Origin: Paracoccus sp. MC1862
GTDB taxonomy: Bacteria > Pseudomonadota > Alphaproteobacteria > Rhodobacterales > Rhodobacteraceae
Reading direction: 5' to 3'
Assembly: GCF_016617715.1 (NCBI RefSeq)
Contig: NZ_CP067225.1
Location: 868,001-932,000 of the forward strand
DNA: 64,000 nt
The position numbers and the translations under genes were made by a program. The first letter of the stretch is position 1. The number at the start of each line of letters is the position of its first letter. The notes beneath the pieces are model-generated. The model did no database searches and was not told the DNA's origin. It saw only the letters and a program-made list of their open reading frames with translations. Of this stretch, positions 7,714 through 16,771 are shown one piece after another.

Positions 7714-8814
7714 TCAACAAAGATCGCGGCGCAGGACCTCGACGATTCGGCTAGCGGCCTTGCCGTCGCCGTAGGGCGATCCGCGGGAAGCCATGGCCGC
7801 GCAGGCTGCGGGATCGTCCAGCAGGGTTTGGGCCGCCGCGCGGATCGGCTCGGTCTCGGTGCCGACAAGCCGCGTCGTCCCGGCGCTGACCGCCTCGGGG
7901 CGCTCGGTCGTTTCGCGCAGCACCAGGACCGGCTTGCCCAAGGCCGGCGCCTCTTCCTGCACGCCGCCCGAATCCGACAGGATCAGCGTCGCCCGGCTCA
8001 TCGCGGCGACAAACGAGGCATAGTCCAGCGGCTCGCACAGAAGGACGCGGTCCATCGCGCCGAAGCGTTCATGCACGACCCCGCGCACATTCGGGTTGTG
8101 GTGAACCGGCAGAACCATCTGGACGTCGGGATTGTCCTCGACCAGCCGCGCAAGCGCGTCGCAGATGCGGCCCAGCGGCTCGCCGAAGTTCTCGCGCCGG
8201 TGCAGCGTCACCAGCAGCAGGCGCTTGCCGGGGTCGAGGGCAAGGCCGATATGGGGTTTGGTCGCGGCCACATGGTGCAGCGCGTCGATGACCGTGTTGC
8301 CGGTCACATGGATGTCGGCCGCGGGATAGCCCTCGGCCAGCAGGCGGTCGGCGGAAAGCCGGGTCGGGGCAAAGTGCCAGCGGCTCAGGCGGCTTGCCAC
8401 GACGCGGTTCAGTTCCTCGGGAAAGGGGTTGGCGATGTCGCCGGTCCGCAGCCCCGCCTCGACATGGCCGAAAGGCACCTGCGCGTAAAAGGATGACAGC
8501 GCCGTCGCCAGAACGGTGGTCGTGTCCCCCTGCGCCAGCACCGCGTCCGGCTGTTCGGCCGCCAGCACCTCCTCCAGCCGGATCAGCAGCCGCCCGGTCA
8601 GGCCGCCGAGGGTCTGGCCGGGTTCCATGATGTCCAGGTCGATATCGGGCGTGATCTCGAACAGGTCGAGCACCTGGTCCAGCATCTGCCGGTGCTGCGC
8701 CGTCGCAAGCACCCGGCATTCAAAGGAGGGATCAGCCTGCAATGCCCGGATCACCGGCGCCATCTTGATCGCCTCGGGGCGGGTGCCGACGGTGCAGAGA
8801 ATCTTCTTCCTCAT
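7714..8814 (-). CDS. wecB: UDP-N-acetylglucosamine 2-epimerase (non-hydrolysing)
   Basis: Interconverts UDP-GlcNAc and UDP-ManNAc, supplying ManNAc-type sugars for capsule or O-antigen. The 366-residue protein has the GT-B-like epimerase fold signatures: VGTRPEAIKMAP at the N-terminus, QGDTTTVLATALSS, HVEAGLRTGD with the catalytic acidic residue, FAPTRLSADRLL, THRRENFG-like TLHRRENFGEP, and LSDSGGVQEEAPALGKPVL for UDP binding. Length is typical. Its ATG overlaps the stop of the upstream sulfotransferase-like gene (ATGA), so it is the last gene of a minus-strand operon with the two genes at 8811-13372. The operon context suggests an extracellular polysaccharide. Confidence 0.92.
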   Translation of the reverse strand: MRKKILCTVGTRPEAIKMAPVIRALQADPSFECRVLATAQHRQMLDQVLDLFEITPDIDLDIMEPGQTLGGLTGRLLIRLEEVLAAEQPDAVLAQGDTTTVLATALSSFYAQVPFGHVEAGLRTGDIANPFPEELNRVVASRLSRWHFAPTRLSADRLLAEGYPAADIHVTGNTVIDALHHVAATKPHIGLALDPGKRLLLVTLHRRENFGEPLGRICDALARLVEDNPDVQMVLPVHHNPNVRGVVHERFGAMDRVLLCEPLDYASFVAAMSRATLILSDSGGVQEEAPALGKPVLVLRETTERPEAVSAGTTRLVGTETEPIRAAAQTLLDDPAACAAMASRGSPYGDGKAASRIVEVLRRDLC

Positions 8815-9740
8815 ATCCGGTGGTCCGCTGCGATCAGCGCGCAGGCGCGGTCGTAAAGGGCGGCGTCCTGCCAGTTGGCGCGGATCAGCCGGTCGCGCAG
8901 GGCAGGGGGCAGCGCGGACAGCATCGCCTCGACCCGCTCGGCCGTGCTGTCGGGCGCGGCATCGGTGACGTTGTGGCGCGTGTCGTCGGGCAAGGACAGC
9001 GTCAGCCCGTGGCCGGCCAGGATGTCGCCGAACCGGGCGACGTCGGCCTCGAACTGCTCGGTCCGGCCCAGCAGCTCGATCCCGGCAAGGGTCCTCAGCG
9101 CGGTTCCCAGATCATAGGTGATCCCCTCTGCCGTGCGCTTGAGGACGGGCCGCGTCCGGTAGGGCGAGGCGAAGAAGCGGGTCTGCGCATTCGAGACATG
9201 GACGACCTCTGCCGGCGAGTTCAGGCAATGCTCGATCCAGCCCGCAAGGTCGTGCCGGCGCGCGGCCATCGCCGTCGTCGTCTTGTCGAAATCGGGCGCG
9301 GGCAGCGGCTCTGGCAGGGGCAGCGTTCCTTCGGGCAGGCCGGGGTTCACGGTGCGTTGGGCCTCGGCGGCCTGCCGGGTCAGTTCGGCCTCAAGCTCCT
9401 CGGGCACGAGCGAGCCCAGCGGCGTTCCGTCAGCGCGTTCCGGCCCGCGCTTGAAGCGGTAGATCGAGGCGATCCGCAGAAAGGGGTTGCGCAGGAAGAT
9501 CGCGGCCAGCGCGCGGTAGCCAATCGAACTGGGCGGCGGCAGCAGGATCTGGTGCGAGGAGAACGCCACCGCCTGCGGACGGCGCATGATGATCCGGTCC
9601 AACTGGTCCTGGTCGATGGTGAAGAAGGGATAGGGACCGTCAAACAACTCGTGCCGGTCGCCGAAGTTGTGGGTGAGAACGTGATCGAAGGACGTCCCCG
9701 CGTTCTTGTAGATATGGTAATGAAGGATGACGGTCCGCAT
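8811..9740 (-). CDS. Sulfotransferase-like protein
   Basis: A 309-residue protein whose N-terminus HYHIYKNAGTSFDHVL resembles the PAPS 5'-phosphosulfate loop of carbohydrate sulfotransferases (KxAGTS). A later FLRNPFLRIASIYRFK segment matches the 3'-phosphate-binding motif (RdPxxRxxSxY-like). It probably transfers sulfate to a sugar, acting in the cytoplasm before export or at the membrane; no signal peptide is visible. I start at the ATG at 9740, although the frame continues open upstream, because the upstream coding region belongs to the large glycosyltransferase in another frame and an ATCGC/GGAAG stretch precedes the ATG. Domain family is probable; the acceptor is unknown. Confidence 0.75.
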   Translation of the reverse strand: MRTVILHYHIYKNAGTSFDHVLTHNFGDRHELFDGPYPFFTIDQDQLDRIIMRRPQAVAFSSHQILLPPPSSIGYRALAAIFLRNPFLRIASIYRFKRGPERADGTPLGSLVPEELEAELTRQAAEAQRTVNPGLPEGTLPLPEPLPAPDFDKTTTAMAARRHDLAGWIEHCLNSPAEVVHVSNAQTRFFASPYRTRPVLKRTAEGITYDLGTALRTLAGIELLGRTEQFEADVARFGDILAGHGLTLSLPDDTRHNVTDAAPDSTAERVEAMLSALPPALRDRLIRANWQDAALYDRACALIAADHRI

Positions 9741-9757: not shown

Positions 9758-12700
9758 TCAGCGGCCGGGCAGGCTGCCCGAGGGGCGGCCCTGCCGATAA
9801 CGGTGCGGCATCCATGTGCCCCAGCGGCTTTCGAAGATGTCTCTGTTGCGCTGGAACAACTGCTGCTTTTCGCCCGATGGCAGCGCGTCGAAGCTGGCCG
9901 ACAGGTGGTGGTGGCAGAAGGCGTCCTCGGCCAGCGCCATCTGCAGCCCGGCCTTGCGGAAGGTGGCGCAGTGGTCGTCGTCCTCGAACATGCCGAGGCC
10001 GTAGACCTCGGGCAGATGCCCCAGCCGGTCGAGGTCGGCGCGGCGGAACATGGCGCAGAAATAGGCGCAGACGTGCAGGGGCGTCCATGCCCCCCGGTGC
10101 CCGGTCGCAAGAACGCGAGCGGCGCGGATCATCTGGTCCATGTCGGCATAGGCGACCTCGACCCGCGCCTCGTTGCCGATGTTGTTGGTCATCGGGCCGA
10201 CGATGCCGATGACGGGATTGCGCTGCAGGTGACGGACCATCGCCAGAAGCGCGCCCGGCGCAAGGAAGGTGTCGTTGTTCAGCAGCAGGACATATTCCCC
10301 GCTGGACGCGGCGATGCCCCGGTTGTTGCCCCGGGCGAAGCCGAGGTTTTCGCCGTTCTCGACCAGCAGGATACGGTCGTCCTGGCCCGCGCGGTCGCGC
10401 AGCACCTCTCGCACCTGGGGGGGCGAGCCGTTGTCCACCAGCACGACTTCGAGGTTTGGATAGACCTCGCCCCGCCCCAGCAGCGCGTGCAGCGTGGCCA
10501 GCGTCATGTCGGTGTCCGTGCCGTAATGCAGCACGATCACGGACAGCTTCGGCTCGCGCCGCATCTCGGCCAGCAGGTCGGCGGCGCGGAAGGACCAGGC
10601 GTTGTCCAGGGCATATTGCCGCAGCCGCTGGCCGAACACCGCGTCCCGTGCCAGCGGCGCCGCGCGGCGGATGGCCGCGGCGAAGCTCGCCGGATCGTCG
10701 GCGCGGAACACCAGATCGCCCGCGCGGTCGAGTTCGGGCAGCGAGGTCGAGACGGTCGGCCGCATGACCGCGGAATATTCGTAGAACTTGACCGGGTCGC
10801 AGGCCTTGATGATCGGCAGCAACTGGAAGGGAATGATCAGCACGTCCATCTGGCCGTGAAAGGCCGGCACGTCGGCATAGGGGATTTCCCCGTGCAGCGT
10901 GACATTCCGCAACCGGCCCAGCCGCAGCGGAGGCTCGGCCGTGACCGCGCCGCAAAGATGGATGTCGAAGCTCGGATTGTCGCGGGCGACGGCTTCCAGC
11001 AGGTCGGTGTCGAACCATTCGGCGATCGCCCCCACATAGCCCACGCGGATCGCGCCGGGCCTGAGCCTGCCGGCAAGCCAGGCGGGGGCGGGGTCGTCGC
11101 CCTCGCGGATGAAGTGGCTCACGTCGGCGCCGTTGCGGACCATCGCCACCTCGCGCATCGGGGCGAACTTGTCATGAAGATATTGCGAGCTGACGATCAT
11201 CTTGTCGGCCCGCGCGATCATCTCCAGCTCGGCCTCCAGCACATGGGGTTCGGTGTTAGAAAAGCCGCCGATGTCGTCCATGCAGTCGAAGGTGATCTGG
11301 TATTCCGGCGACAGGTGGCGGGCGAGGTTCCACCAGAAGGGATGCTCGATCACCACATGGCTAACGGGCGAGGCGCCCACCGCATCGGCCAGCGCGTGGA
11401 AATGTTCGACCCAGGCACGCGCCTGCGCCCCGGTCGGCACCCCGGTATAGGATTGCAGCCCGCGCATTCCCCGGCCGGGCAGCCGGACCACATGGACCAT
11501 CGGCGCGACCTCGCGCACGCTGCCTTCGCGCAGGTTCTGCTCCATCTCGATGAAGAAGACGCGGTGGCCTTCGGCCGCCATCCGGGTGGAAAGATGCTGC
11601 GGCCGCTGGGTGCGGAAATCCCAGTTGATGATCGACAGCACGAAGATGTCGGGCTTGTCGCCTGTCCGCGCGGGAACGGTCCCGTAGCCTGCGGCGCTGG
11701 ATGCCGACAGCGGCGGAAAGGCCAGCGCCCGCGGGATGCCGCCCGGCACCGGCAGGCCGCGCTTGACGCGCTCGACGGCGGCGCCGGGCAGCACCCGGCG
11801 CAGGGTCCGGCCACCGCTGCGATAAAGCCGGCGGTAGATCGGCTTCAGGATGGTCTGGCGTTCCCGTTCAAGCCATGCCGTGGCCGAGGCGAGCGCCTGC
11901 CCCGTCGCCTCAAGCCGGGCCTCAAGCTGGGCTGCATGATCCTGCAGATGCTCGATGGTGGCCCAGCGCGCCTCGGCGATCTCGGTCATCTCGTCGCGCT
12001 GCGCCTCGGTCGCGGCGACAAGCTGTTCAAGATCGCCCGCCGCAGCGGCGGCCGCTGTTGCGGCCACGCGATGCGCCTCGCTTGCGCGCCGCTCGGCGGC
12101 AAGGGCGGCCATGCCCTCGTCCCGCTGCGCCTCGGTGGCCCGAAGCCGGGCCGTGAAGGTGGCAACGGCCTCATCCCGCTGGGCCTCGGTGGCGCACAAT
12201 CGAGCGGCAAGATTGGCGGTCATCTCGTCGCGTTGCGCCTCGGTGCTGGCAAGCTGCGCGGTCAGGTCCGCCACGCTTTTTTCCCGCTGCGCCTCGGTGG
12301 CGCGCAAGCGGGCGGTGAGGCTGGCGGTCGCCTCGTCGCGTTGCGCCTCGGTCCGGGCAAGCTGGTCGGCCATGGCGGCGAGGCTTTCGTCGCGCTGGGC
12401 CTCGGTCGATTGCAACTGCTCGGTCAGGATGGCCACGCTTTCGTCGCGCTGCGCCTCGGTCTGGCGAAGGCGGTCCTGCTGGGCGGCCAGATCGCGGCGC
12501 AGCGCGGCGGCGGCCAGATGACCGTCCCGCAAAGCGGCGGCATTCGCCTGCTCGACCGCGCGGGCCGGGGCGGACAGCGCATGGAACCGCCGGGCGAAGA
12601 GGGCAAGCCCTGCCGCTGCCGGAACCTCGCCGCGCCTTGCGGCTGCGGCGAGGGCGTCGAAGAGTTCAAGCGCAAGGTTTTCGATCAGGCCGGCGTTGGC

Positions 12701-13372
12701 CGTGATGTCGTCCCGCCCGTGGACAGACTCGGGCAGAAAGGTTCCCGCAACACGCGACTGCGCCCCGCCTGGCGCGTCCTCGTCAAACAGACCCGCGATA
12801 CGGGCAAGGACGGGGGAGGGGTCCTGCGCCCAGTCGGGGAACAGCACGATCTGCCGCGGCAACCCCTCGGACCCGGCAACCGCAGAGAGCGTGTGATTGA
12901 TCCAGGACAGCATCGCTGCATCGGCGGCGAATCCGTTGCGGCGGTTGATCGACCGGGCGACATCGCGCGGATCGCGCAGCGCGATCAGTACCGCGCCGCG
13001 CCCGCCCCGCGCATCCAGCCACCCCCGCCAGAGAGGCAGGGTCAGCGACAGGCGTGGGTCCTTGACCATGATGCGGTCGGCCTTGCCGAAGCTGGCCGCC
13101 ACCGCCCTGTCCATCCGGCCCAGGATCGCGTCATCCGGCGCGGGAAGGTCCAACGGCCCGACACGGAACCACAGCGCGCCCTGATCCGACAGGATGGCCT
13201 CGTTCAGCGCGACAACGGCCTGCGGCTCGAAATGCCCGCGCGGGTTGTCGTCAGCCGGGCCACCCGCATCGCGCGGCAGCGCAAATCCCAGCGCGCCGCA
13301 GCTTTCCCCCAGGAACGAGGTCCCGCTGCGGTGCATTCCGGCAATCAGCAGCACGGTCGGGGAAGAAGGCAC
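9758..13372 (-). CDS. Multidomain sulfotransferase / coiled-coil repeat / double glycosyltransferase
   Basis: A 1204-residue fusion. Residues 1-235 are a sulfotransferase-like P-loop domain (IAGMHRSGTSFLGE near the start, then VKDPRLSLTLP and LIALRDPRDVARSI). Residues about 240-300 are helical. Residues 305-430 are seven in-phase 18-residue repeats beginning TEAQRDE, with two degenerate copies up to about 480. Residues about 572-930 form a GT-B glycosyltransferase of the GT4/GT1 kind (FRTQRPQHLSTRMAAEGH, VGYVGAIAEWFDT, CDPVKFYEYSA). Residues about 941-1180 form a GT-A family 2 glycosyltransferase (LSVIVLHYGTD, VLVDNGSPP, LLLNNDTFLAPG as the DxD-like motif). No membrane helix is evident. It probably modifies and extends a sulfated surface glycan. 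The exact reaction is not known. Confidence 0.85.
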   Translation of the reverse strand: MPSSPTVLLIAGMHRSGTSFLGESCGALGFALPRDAGGPADDNPRGHFEPQAVVALNEAILSDQGALWFRVGPLDLPAPDDAILGRMDRAVAASFGKADRIMVKDPRLSLTLPLWRGWLDARGGRGAVLIALRDPRDVARSINRRNGFAADAAMLSWINHTLSAVAGSEGLPRQIVLFPDWAQDPSPVLARIAGLFDEDAPGGAQSRVAGTFLPESVHGRDDITANAGLIENLALELFDALAAAARRGEVPAAAGLALFARRFHALSAPARAVEQANAAALRDGHLAAAALRRDLAAQQDRLRQTEAQRDESVAILTEQLQSTEAQRDESLAAMADQLARTEAQRDEATASLTARLRATEAQREKSVADLTAQLASTEAQRDEMTANLAARLCATEAQRDEAVATFTARLRATEAQRDEGMAALAAERRASEAHRVAATAAAAAAGDLEQLVAATEAQRDEMTEIAEARWATIEHLQDHAAQLEARLEATGQALASATAWLERERQTILKPIYRRLYRSGGRTLRRVLPGAAVERVKRGLPVPGGIPRALAFPPLSASSAAGYGTVPARTGDKPDIFVLSIINWDFRTQRPQHLSTRMAAEGHRVFFIEMEQNLREGSVREVAPMVHVVRLPGRGMRGLQSYTGVPTGAQARAWVEHFHALADAVGASPVSHVVIEHPFWWNLARHLSPEYQITFDCMDDIGGFSNTEPHVLEAELEMIARADKMIVSSQYLHDKFAPMREVAMVRNGADVSHFIREGDDPAPAWLAGRLRPGAIRVGYVGAIAEWFDTDLLEAVARDNPSFDIHLCGAVTAEPPLRLGRLRNVTLHGEIPYADVPAFHGQMDVLIIPFQLLPIIKACDPVKFYEYSAVMRPTVSTSLPELDRAGDLVFRADDPASFAAAIRRAAPLARDAVFGQRLRQYALDNAWSFRAADLLAEMRREPKLSVIVLHYGTDTDMTLATLHALLGRGEVYPNLEVVLVDNGSPPQVREVLRDRAGQDDRILLVENGENLGFARGNNRGIAASSGEYVLLLNNDTFLAPGALLAMVRHLQRNPVIGIVGPMTNNIGNEARVEVAYADMDQMIRAARVLATGHRGAWTPLHVCAYFCAMFRRADLDRLGHLPEVYGLGMFEDDDHCATFRKAGLQMALAEDAFCHHHLSASFDALPSGEKQQLFQRNRDIFESRWGTWMPHRYRQGRPSGSLPGR
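12008..12460. repeat. 54-bp tandem repeat coding for 18-residue TEAQRDE units
   Basis: On the plus strand the octamer GCCTCGGT recurs at about 12183, 12237, 12291, 12345, 12399 and 12453, exactly 54 bases apart; earlier, less regular copies lie at 12127 and 12003. Each unit encodes TEAQRDE plus 11 variable residues. Codons differ between copies, so the array is protein-constrained and not a fresh DNA duplication. Confidence 0.9.
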
Positions 13373-13462
13373 TGCGCATTCCTGTCTGGATCAACGGGGC
13401 GTGACCTATCGGGCGCATGGACCGGGGTCAACGCGCGGATGGGGTCACCCTGCGCGGATCGG

Positions 13463-14839
13463 TCAGGCGTGCCCCTCAGCCCGCAAGCCATCGAAGACGC
13501 GGCCGAGCGCGCCGTCCAGCTTGTCGAACATCTCGTCCATCTGCGCATCGGTCAGGATGAAGGGCGGGCAGAGGACGATGGACTGCCCCAGAGGGCGGCA
13601 GATCAGGCCCATATCGGTGCAGGTGTTGGCGATGCGCTCGCTGACCGACAGATGCGGGGGGAACGGCTCCTTCGTTTCGGCGTTCTTCACGGCCTCCAGC
13701 GCCCACATGAAGCCGACGCCGCGCAACTCGCCGATGTTCTGGTGGCGCTGCATGATGTCGCGCAGGCCCGCCTCCATCCGGGGGGCCTTGTCGATGACAT
13801 TCTGCGCCAGCCCCTCGTTCATCACCACGTCGATGGCCTTCAGCGCGATGGCGCAACCGACCGGGTGGCCGGATGCGGTGAAGCCATGGGGGAACTCCTC
13901 GATCGGGGCGATGGCGGCATCAAGCCGGTCGCTGAGTTCGGGGCCGAGGATCACGGCGCCCATCGGGAAGAACCCGGCAGTGAGGTTCTTGGAACTGATG
14001 ATCGCGTCGGGCATGAAGTCGTAGGTCTGGCAGCCCCAAGTGTTGCCAGTGCGGCCGAAGCCGGTGATGACCTCGTCGGCGATCAGCGGGATGCCGTGTT
14101 TTTTCAGGATCGGCTGGACCGCCTGGAAATACCCCCTGGCCGGCGGGATCACCCCGCCCGCGCCCTGCACGGGTTCCGCAAAGAAACCGGAGATGGTGTC
14201 CGCGCCCTCGCGCTGAATGGTGTCCTCAAGCTCGCGGGCAAGGCGGGCCACGAACTCGGCCTCGGATTCGCCGGCCTTCCCCTCGCGCCAGAAATGCGGG
14301 CAGGTCAGGTGGATGAATCCGTCCAGCGGCAGGCCGAAGACCTCGTTATAGGGCTTGCCGGTCATGCTGGCCGAGACGACCGTGACGCCGTGATAGGCAT
14401 TCCAGCGCGTCAAGATCTTGCGCCGCTGCGGGTTCCCTTCGGCCCTGTGCAGAAACCACAGCATCTTGACCATGGTGTCGTTCGCCTCGGACCCCGAGTT
14501 GGTGTAGAACACCTTGCCGCGCCGGAACGGAGAGACCTCGACCAGCTTTTCCGACAGCATCACCGTCTGGTCCGACATCCGCCCGAAGAAGGCATGATAG
14601 CCGGGAAAGCGGTCGTATTGCGCCTTGGCGGCCTCGATCATTCCCGGATGGTCAAAGCCCGCGACCATGTTCCACAGCCCCGAGTTCGAATCGAGCCACT
14701 TCCTCCCCTGGGTGTCGAAGACATAAGGCCCTTCGCCATGGGTCAGGACGATGGTGCCCCGGCTTTCGACGCTGGGCAGGTCGGTGAAGCCATACATCGA
14801 AACGGTTTCGGCCCGCGCGGCCCAGCTCTTGTCGTCCAT
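13463..14839 (-). CDS. Class III PLP-dependent aminotransferase
   Basis: Transfers an amino group from an omega-amino acid or amine to a keto acid, usually pyruvate. The 458 residues show class III hallmarks: FYTNSGSEANDTMVK (phosphate loop), WNAYHGVT, ADEVITGFGRTG with the cofactor-binding Asp, and SKNLTAGFFPMGAV with the Schiff-base Lys. It resembles taurine- or beta-alanine-pyruvate aminotransferases, but substrate cannot be assigned. The open frame starts far upstream; I chose the ATG at 14839 because GGAGG lies 6 bases before it and the N-terminus then matches the family. It stands alone, divergent from the small exported protein at 14999. Confidence 0.88.
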   Translation of the reverse strand: MDDKSWAARAETVSMYGFTDLPSVESRGTIVLTHGEGPYVFDTQGRKWLDSNSGLWNMVAGFDHPGMIEAAKAQYDRFPGYHAFFGRMSDQTVMLSEKLVEVSPFRRGKVFYTNSGSEANDTMVKMLWFLHRAEGNPQRRKILTRWNAYHGVTVVSASMTGKPYNEVFGLPLDGFIHLTCPHFWREGKAGESEAEFVARLARELEDTIQREGADTISGFFAEPVQGAGGVIPPARGYFQAVQPILKKHGIPLIADEVITGFGRTGNTWGCQTYDFMPDAIISSKNLTAGFFPMGAVILGPELSDRLDAAIAPIEEFPHGFTASGHPVGCAIALKAIDVVMNEGLAQNVIDKAPRMEAGLRDIMQRHQNIGELRGVGFMWALEAVKNAETKEPFPPHLSVSERIANTCTDMGLICRPLGQSIVLCPPFILTDAQMDEMFDKLDGALGRVFDGLRAEGHA

Positions 14840-14998
14840 GATCGCCTCCAATGCGGTTGGCGCAAGGCTACCCGGGCGGGCTGGCGGGTTCAACAAAGCC
14901 TTCGTCACGAGAGGACAGGGTGACAGTCTAGGACATTGGTCGGGCTGTTGCAGCCTTGTGCGCAGGATCATCCTGCAGGGGCAGGGATGGAGGATGCC

Positions 14999-15550: not shown

Positions 15551-16771
15551 TCAACGATCCAGCGCCATGACATGGACTGGCGGTGCTGCCGGTGCCCTCG
15601 ATGTCGACATGCGCCGCGACAGATGGCGCAAGAGCGGCGCTTCGATCATCACATGCAGCCCGTGAGCAACGACAACCGCTGCCGCGACTACTAGGATGAT
15701 GGTGACATCCGGCGGAAGCTCAGCCCCTCCGGCCGCGGCCAGCAAACGCGCAACGACAGACATCGCGGGCACATGGATAAGATAAAGCAGATAAGAAGAG
15801 TCTCCGAGGCGCGCCATGACACGGGGAACCGATGGCTCGGCCGCCGCAATTCCGGCAATTGTGATCGCAGCGCACAAGCCCAGCAACCAAGTTCGCAGGC
15901 TGAAAGGCAACGGCATCCAGTCCTGAACATCAGCCTGTCCGATGGCGATGAACCCGAGCACGCCGATCGCGATCATGATCCGTCCCGCGGTCCGGTCGAA
16001 CTGCCTGAACAGGACAGCACCAGCGATGCCCATTGAGAACAGAACGTTGTAAGGCGAAAGCAGATAGCCCAGCGGATGGCTTCCAAGCGACGTGCTGCTC
16101 ATGCCGATGCAGGCTATCGTCCATGATGCCAAGACCACCAGCCCCCAGCGGGCGGATACCAGCGCAAGAGCAAAGACTGCGTAGAACAGCAACTCGTGCC
16201 GCAGCGTCCAGGCGACCTCCAGCGCGGGCGCAGGCGGCCAGGGAAGAAGCAGCGCTGATCCCAGCAGCTTCAGTGGGTCGCGCAGTTCCGCTGACCCGAT
16301 TCCGGGCACGATCAGCGTGACAACGAATAGCGAGATCAGGACCAGCCAGTAAATCGGGAAGATACGGACAAACCTTTTCCACGCATAAGACAGTAACGCG
16401 CCCCGATGTCCGATGTCACGCCTGTGTACGTGGAACATGATAAAGCCGGAAAGGACGAAAAAATACTCCACTCCGGTGTAGCCCGCATTGTAGAATGTGG
16501 CCGCCGCTGCGCCATCATGAAGCTTGTGGGGCAGGATATAGACATTGGCGTGGAAGAGGACGACAGCCAGCGCAGCTATCGCACGACCCGCCTGAATGCC
16601 ATCCAGCCTGCGCGGCGCCTCTCTTGGATCAAATGAGAGCGAGCCGGGAAGAACCGTTTTTGAAAAGTTCAACAAAGGATAAACCTGTCCTGAAATCCTG
16701 CGCCACACTAATCTCACTACGAAGCGTTGCAAGCTGTCCATTTGGTCAGAACTGTGATCCAGCGCAGGCAT
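15551..16771 (-). CDS. Acyltransferase 3 family membrane protein (ExoZ-like)
   Basis: An integral membrane acyltransferase that would O-acylate exopolysaccharide or other surface sugars. The protein has about ten hydrophobic helices. It begins its core with LDGIQAGRAIAALAVVLFH (the conserved Arg and His of the family lie here), followed by GYTGVEYFFVLSGFIMFHVH and RFVRIFPIYWLVL, both signature segments. The true start is uncertain: ATG codons at 16771 and 16741 lack good ribosome-binding sites, and a TTG further in, after CAGGACAGG, is possible, so the first 40-50 residues may not be translated. Base composition is visibly lower in GC than the neighbours, which suggests transfer. Confidence 0.85.
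   Translation of the reverse strand: MPALDHSSDQMDSLQRFVVRLVWRRISGQVYPLLNFSKTVLPGSLSFDPREAPRRLDGIQAGRAIAALAVVLFHANVYILPHKLHDGAAAATFYNAGYTGVEYFFVLSGFIMFHVHRRDIGHRGALLSYAWKRFVRIFPIYWLVLISLFVVTLIVPGIGSAELRDPLKLLGSALLLPWPPAPALEVAWTLRHELLFYAVFALALVSARWGLVVLASWTIACIGMSSTSLGSHPLGYLLSPYNVLFSMGIAGAVLFRQFDRTAGRIMIAIGVLGFIAIGQADVQDWMPLPFSLRTWLLGLCAAITIAGIAAAEPSVPRVMARLGDSSYLLYLIHVPAMSVVARLLAAAGGAELPPDVTIILVVAAAVVVAHGLHVMIEAPLLRHLSRRMSTSRAPAAPPVHVMALDR

Follow-up and report, generated by a model that had tools for sequence, protein, structure and literature searches.

A Paracoccus fusion of a sulfotransferase-type head, a repeat rod and two glycosyltransferases as a putative polysaccharide polymerase and terminator

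Ruler-mounted terminators and the Paracoccus fusion gene

One strategy of polysaccharide synthesis is recognised by a coiled-coil ruler that carries the terminator at its distal end, polymerase and terminator forming one protein in Klebsiella pneumoniae O12 (WbbB) and nearly so in O7 (PMC11231755). In the present study, we analysed a stretch of 64,000 nucleotides from Paracoccus sp. MC1862 (assembly GCF_016617715.1, contig NZ_CP067225.1, positions 868,001 to 932,000; hereafter the window), in which a single gene encodes a fusion protein with a cap-enzyme candidate, here a sulfotransferase-type head, at one end, a coiled-coil-like rod, and two glycosyltransferases (GTs) at the other, which is the layout of WbbB and of ORF6 of O7. 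By analogy with these systems, we favour with moderate confidence the view that the fusion is a polysaccharide polymerase and terminator in one, with a sulfate cap and the rod as ruler. The layout is known from other bacteria with methyl or sugar caps, and a sulfate cap would seem to be new.

WbbB of O12 resembles the fusion in uniting polymerisation and termination in one protein, with two C-terminal GTs and a coiled-coil ruler (PMC11231755). It differs in its head, which is of the capsule-synthesis type and not a sulfotransferase, and the likeness is drawn from published descriptions. The cap added by this protein is 3-deoxy-D-manno-oct-2-ulosonic acid (Kdo). ORF6 of O7 likewise has a head (methyltransferase-kinase), a coiled coil and two C-terminal GT modules, but its cap is methyl-phosphate, both modules are of the GT2 type and an extra carbohydrate-binding module is present (PMC11231755). 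In the WbdD/WbdA pair of Escherichia coli O9a, a coiled-coil ruler bears the terminator at its distal tip, as proposed for the fusion, whereas the polymerase of the pair is a separate protein and its cap comes from a kinase-methyltransferase (PMC11231755). WsaE of Geobacillus stearothermophilus joins an N-terminal cap-forming enzyme to two GTs, both rhamnosyltransferases, in a cluster with rml genes and Wzm/Wzt; it differs in its O-methyltransferase cap and its polyrhamnose S-layer glycan, and the accessible parts of the paper mention no coiled coil (PMC2943079). The WbbB of Aeromonas salmonicida (1122 aa) consists of a head followed by GT1 and GT2; the genes for Wzt, a sulfotransferase, WbbB and WecB follow one another there, within a cluster that holds Wzm/Wzt and rml genes, and the O-antigen of rhamnose, mannosamine (ManN) and glucose is lost without wbbB (PMC4483657).

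The heads of WbbB, O7 ORF6 and WsaE cap the chain (PMC11231755, PMC2943079), the rods of the Klebsiella and E. coli proteins measure it (PMC11231755), and the terminators of the pathway that we found described add methyl or methyl-phosphate (PMC11231755, PMC2943079) or, in WbbB of O12, Kdo. For E. coli group 3 capsules, proteins noted as putative methyltransferases contain coiled coils that vary in length (PMC13171606). No sulfotransferase in a terminator role is described in the literature searched, largely without subscription papers. A sequence-only reading of the window had known of no described enzyme with this full order; the exact head and order are indeed undescribed in that literature, but the layout with other heads is described, namely in WbbB, O7 ORF6 and WsaE.

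We propose that the C-terminal GT-B and GT-A would extend a membrane-bound, lipid-linked chain by two sugars alternately. WecB and the rml genes suggest N-acetylmannosamine (ManNAc), which the neighbouring WecB would supply, and rhamnose as the candidates. The rod, which probably acts as a ruler between the enzymes, as in the described systems, would hold the sulfotransferase head, at the N terminus, a constant distance away. Once long enough, the growing non-reducing end would reach the head, sulfate from 3'-phosphoadenosine 5'-phosphosulfate (PAPS) would be placed there and growth would stop; the finished chain would then leave via an ATP-binding cassette (ABC) exporter (Wzm/Wzt or KpsM/T). 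The parts of the gene are as follows, the names 5'-phosphosulfate-binding (5'-PSB) loop and 3'-phosphate-binding (3'-PB) motif being those of the PAPS sulfotransferase motifs that we take GMHRSGTS and RDPRDVARS to be.

9758..13372, minus: whole gene, sulfotransferase head - rod - GT-B - GT-A; 1204 codons, GTG start at 13372
12557..13372, minus: head domain, residues 1-272 (23-sequence alignment, AlphaFold2 model, PDB profile matches to sulfotransferases)
13316..13339, minus: 5'-PSB loop GMHRSGTS, residues 12-19 (alignment and model)
13052..13063, minus: invariant KDPR, residues 104-107 (23-sequence alignment)
12950..12976, minus: 3'-PB motif RDPRDVARS, residues 133-141 (alignment, 5x2b match, model)
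11858..12556, minus: rod of 18-residue repeats, residues 273-505; repeat arrays within 12117-12465
11750..11860, minus: basic segment after the rod, residues 505-541; some G, L, R and P positions invariant in alignment A2
10568..11692, minus: GT-B glycosyltransferase, residues 561-935, TuaH-like, with conserved CDPVKFYEY
9758..10567, minus: GT-A (GT2) glycosyltransferase, residues 936-1204, with NND at 1032-1034 and EDDDH at 1130-1134

The sulfotransferase-type head, its exchange and the modules behind it

The proposal of a sulfate-adding terminator draws chiefly on the replacement of the head by a methyltransferase beside a homologous polymerase module, and further on the layout and the exporters. 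Homologues of the GT-B/GT-A pair occur with other heads or with none. On a plasmid of Paraburkholderia fungorum (L115), the homologous GT-B and GT-A of WP_253045733.1 (1157 aa) stand behind a repeated coiled-coil-like stretch, in the company of WecB, a permease and Wzt; this predicted polymerase differs from the fusion in its fused methyltransferase head and in a Wzt that carries Wzt_C. A GT pair of 692 residues in G857 (L117) adjoins a methyltransferase/hexapeptide/Capsule_synth protein that is encoded separately, in a cluster that also holds rml, Wzm, Wzt and WecB, and headless pairs accompanied by WecB and Wzt were found in G918, G1036 and Azospirillum, with Wzm seen in the last two. The identity of these five homologues to the window protein is 40-47% in GT-A and 33-36% in GT-B. 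Partial matches in two further genomes (G932, G1048) are not of the fusion order, as far as seen.

The head itself was compared in alignment A1, comprising the window and 22 of the 25 related loci (23 sequences), the other three loci being cut by contig ends. Within the 5'-PSB loop, G12, H14, R15, S16, G17, T18 and S19 are invariant and M13 nearly so; R133, P135 and S141 of the 3'-PB motif are invariant as well, and so are N43, G46, E49, K104-R107, R145 and W157. The AlphaFold2 model of the head (mean predicted local distance difference test score, pLDDT, 90.4; predicted template modelling score, pTM, 0.90) places both PAPS motifs between strand and helix, the P-loop after the first strand (E6-11) and the 3'-PB motif after strand E125-132, in helix H135-146. 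A profile of A1 gave 15 matches at E <= 1 among the sequences of solved structures, and the widened profile A3 (20 heads) gave 37 (best 1.1e-6), of which 32 are named sulfotransferase, the rest being one polyketide synthase chain, two retinol dehydratases and two uncharacterised proteins; HMMER aligns the 3'-PB stretch of the head to its counterpart in the sulfotransferase 5x2b. The PAPS motifs and profile matches are common to the head and to Sulfotransfer_3 and cytosolic sulfotransferases, but, unlike these, the window head matches no Pfam family at E <= 0.1. Nine of the 23 heads do match Sulfotransfer_3 at that threshold (best 3.6e-5), and the single Sulfotransfer_3 match of the window genome lies elsewhere, outside the fusion head. 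A PHROGs search with four heads returned nothing, and NCBIfam on the 23 heads returned three families, each with one unrelated match to a single member. The ratio of nonsynonymous to synonymous substitution (dN/dS) in six pairs, 0.25-0.44 for the head and 0.10-0.29 for the GTs, indicates purifying selection on the head. By sequence, the head is a relative of the PAPS-type sulfotransferases, with the corresponding activity predicted.

In the rod, the 18-residue repeat pointed out by the sequence-only reading was recovered as a 54-bp unit in the DNA and as self-match peaks of the protein at lags 18, 36 and 54. Lag 18 is also the top self-match lag in L026, L028, L030 and L031, and weakly in L036; it does not lead in the remaining 15 of the 21 proteins. 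A hydrophobic period of 3.4-3.65 residues is the strongest in 16 of the 21 rods, and coiled-coil character was judged from repeats, composition and this period. The stretch between F212 and the first invariant glycine ahead of GT-B measures 308 residues here and 155-544 across the 21 unbroken proteins, a variation that would be compatible with a rod that sets chain length. By analogy to WbdD, the basic segment after the rod is possibly membrane-associating.

The GT-A module matches PF00535 (2.3e-23, residues 944-1117), its acidic metal-binding motif being NND instead of DxD, with D1034 invariant in 21 sequences. For GT-B, a distant NCBIfam match to TuaH was obtained (1.7e-15, residues 711-926), far below the equivalog cut-off, and no Pfam match, while the Pfam GT1/GT4 models do match its homologues. 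Many residues are invariant in each of the two modules (A2 alignment, 21 sequences). The domain names and order of the sequence-only reading, a head with PAPS-sulfotransferase features, a repeat rod, a GT-B and a GT2, were borne out by motifs, profiles and Pfam/NCBIfam, and its RSGTSFLGE lies at residues 15-23; a Pfam check alone recognised the GT2 of the window protein, leaving its head and GT-B without a match.

The continuous frame of 1204 residues had been placed exactly at 9758-13372 and given no strand; it lies on the minus strand, with the first codon GTG at 13372, the stop at 9758 (open reading frame list) and AGGA 7 nt ahead of the start. A plus-strand frame of 1706 codons (9803-14923) spans the fusion gene and its upstream neighbour, and this overlap invites the suspicion that the antisense frame is the real gene and the minus-strand frame a high-GC artefact. 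Such an explanation is refuted and has practically no chance of being right: the Pfam scan of the antisense frame gave zero matches, codon-position GC differs (third-position GC 0.86 in the fusion gene vs 0.70 in the antisense frame), and the minus-strand protein is whole in 20 of 25 relatives. Because it lacks a Pfam match and has the lower third-position GC, the antisense frame was rejected as a true gene and is taken as the GC-rich artefact.

The relatives of the fusion protein put the window in Paracoccus. The whole domain order stands in one unbroken frame in 20 of the 25 related loci, reaching Hoeflea and Lacimicrobium, and is therefore not due to chance; of the remaining five loci, two are broken between rod and GT-B and three are cut by contig ends. 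In the two broken ones (L027 and L033, P. salipaludis and P. chinensis), the break falls just after the rod, as a stop codon in one and a frame change in the other, and may be either an error of the draft assembly or a real loss. Head and GT distances correlate (r 0.93, 21 sequences), a value reached in 0 of 2000 permutations. A search of 198 genomes of the family with the head alone found relatives in 19, counting that of the window, and the GT pair was found in 22 of 125 genomes of the genus, 19 of these as an unbroken frame of more than 1000 codons. In one of these 19 long frames (L101, 4130-7771, in G708 of the genus), the P-loop is altered and the NND lost; head and GT-A decay together there (by eye), which looks like a dying gene rather than a loss of the head only. 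In the wider searches, scoring covered the top two or three preliminary candidates of each genome, so that the counts are lower bounds: at least 1 of 385 genomes across the class holds the GT pair at E <= 1e-60 (the window genome), and at least 7 of 398 across the phylum hold the pair or part of it at E <= 1e-40. Counts overlap between collections, L003/L028 and L004/L042 looking identical.

Members of the head family, as judged by eye, are also joined to a coiled-coil-like stretch that lacks GTs, or are combined with TPR-like or other GT parts. In L005, L006, L012, L021 and L022, the same head family is followed by a coiled-coil-like stretch ending in a segment of the S.SW..T.P.R type, with no glycosyltransferases; these proteins are possible stand-alone terminators.

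Export, sulfate supply and the alternative readings

The flanks of 13 chosen loci were read, and for the remaining 12 the analysis was confined to a comparison with the neighbour genes of the window. Genes of an ABC exporter stand in the fetched flank of 9 of these 13 loci, confirmed in part by Pfam and otherwise by eye, of the Wzm/Wzt type in L043, L046 and L048 and of the Kps type in L032, L035, L036, L037, L040 and L044. The window genome has KpsS-OPX-KpsC and KpsM (6.9e-51), with KpsT and KpsE recognised by eye, and a provisional conclusion that it lacked an exporter was dropped after KpsM had been found. KpsM occurs at E <= 6.4e-36 in 9 of 10 Paracoccus/Defluviimonas genomes, the genome of L026 giving a weak match (2.2e-12), and the KpsM search found none in the genomes of L041 and L046. 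The other four of the five ABC2_membrane matches in the window genome were rejected as polysaccharide exporters, their surroundings, by eye, not fitting. Likewise, the Wzm-like match of the window genome at G000:C1:960074 is spurious, sitting in an unrelated sensor-kinase region; a similar weak match to the L043 Wzm query was found in G201. For sulfate supply, L048 has CysD and CysN-CysC, the latter within 1.5 kb of the fusion gene, and the window genome encodes an ATP sulfurylase-APS kinase (APS, adenosine 5'-phosphosulfate) away from the window.

Several observations weigh against a polymerase that ends its chains with sulfate. The exporter genes of the window genome lie far from the cassette, and the Wzm query from L043 found nothing in six of the eight Paracoccus/Defluviimonas genomes searched and gave weak matches in two, although this query is insensitive (0.04 in the Lacimicrobium genome). 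Most PDB matches of the A3 profile span only the 3'-PB half of the head, and the head evolves faster than the GTs. WecB is nearby in just 16 of the 25 loci (some cut by contig ends); APS kinase is common, with matches in 11 of 14 control genomes, so that its presence says little; and the polymerase homologue of Paenibacillus (L116) has no WecB or exporter annotated nearby. Pfam found no Wzt_C on the ABC ATPases of the sulfo-headed L037, L043, L046 and L048; because of this absence in four clusters, cap-dependent export of sulfo-headed products is not supported by the sequences. The domain is present on the ABC ATPases of L114, L115 and L117, all from clusters without a sulfo head, and falls below cut-off in L118 and L119. 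Some ABC exporters of the polymerase-terminator pathway lack Wzt_C, and we therefore hold that it is not defining for the whole kind. Additionally, the A. salmonicida O-antigen is without sulfate according to its authors, despite the sulfotransferase gene beside wbbB (PMC4483657).

A homologue of a second, separate sulfotransferase-like gene stands behind the fusion gene in 21 of the 25 loci, which suggests more than one sulfate and speaks for a different reading, namely that the head sulfates internal sugars during synthesis and so sets the sulfation pattern, with the rod as a spacer. We regard this as unlikely, though deserving of serious attention: motif and profile class the head as a sulfotransferase, the second gene (recognised by eye in three more loci) makes several sulfates plausible, and Cobetia marina has a sulfated capsule whose gene cluster includes PAPS genes (PMC11766843). 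Internal sulfation could, however, be performed by that separate second enzyme instead; beside a homologous polymerase module, a methyltransferase occupies the place of the head, or a methyltransferase/Capsule_synth protein adjoins as a separate chain; and in the studied proteins the head is the terminator (PMC11231755, PMC2943079). Control of the sulfation pattern of a surface polysaccharide, as suggested by the sequence-only reading, is accordingly less favoured than one terminal sulfate with length control, because the known heads cap the chain and the Klebsiella and E. coli rods measure it.

The head might also sulfate a lipid-linked primer or another acceptor, or be by now only structural, which we judge improbable. 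KpsC/KpsS in the window genome would suit such a primer, as chains may start on a Kdo linker, and the weaker selection on the head than on the GTs, together with the Paracoccus copy L101 that has lost P-loop and NND residues, would suit a structural role; but none of the 23 aligned sequences departs from the invariant residues of the P-loop, KDPR and the 3'-PB motif, and in L101 the GT-A decays along with the head (by eye), so that it is not a head-only loss.

Returning to the sulfate-adding terminator, we see about an even chance that a new termination chemistry is at work, in which ABC-exported surface polysaccharides would be ended by sulfate from a ruler-mounted sulfotransferase, placing one negative charge at the outermost tip, and in which the GT-less head proteins mentioned above (L005, L006, L012, L021 and L022) would be stand-alone terminators that do with sulfate what WbdD does with methyl-phosphate. 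If true, sulfate would join methyl, methyl-phosphate and Kdo as a terminator chemistry, the proteins of related bacteria made of a sulfotransferase plus a coiled coil would gain a testable role, and a single enzyme would be at hand that might make length-defined, end-sulfated polymers.

Neighbouring genes and further observations

The fusion gene heads a cassette, with two genes downstream.

8811..9740, minus: second, separate sulfotransferase-like gene, 309 aa (weak Sulfotransfer_2 match, 3.8e-4, 21.1 bits vs a cut-off of 22)
7714..8814, minus: UDP-GlcNAc 2-epimerase (WecB; PF02350, 9e-118)

These two overlap by 4 nt at the junction ATGA. A GTEKTGTT protein (its sulfotransferase nature judged by eye) takes the place of the second sulfotransferase in L043, L045 and L048, and Pfam found no sulfotransferase in the proteins at this position of L043 and L048. 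L036 has neither a homologue of the second gene nor a GTEKTGTT protein, and has a further sulfotransferase-like stretch upstream; in L037 (5097-5963) and in L036 (frame from 5089), such a stretch (ARSGSTFL) stands immediately ahead of the fusion gene.

Genes of the rml type were found in the flanks of L041, L043 and L046, and the window genome has two rml sets away from the window. The sets at G000:C4:24650-28000 and G000:C1:76270-79250 (L055, L056) are similar, one of them lying among insertion-sequence-like genes on a small contig. Finally, an acyltransferase family 3 gene lies upstream of the fusion gene in the window (15551-16771, minus) and could modify a surface glycan.

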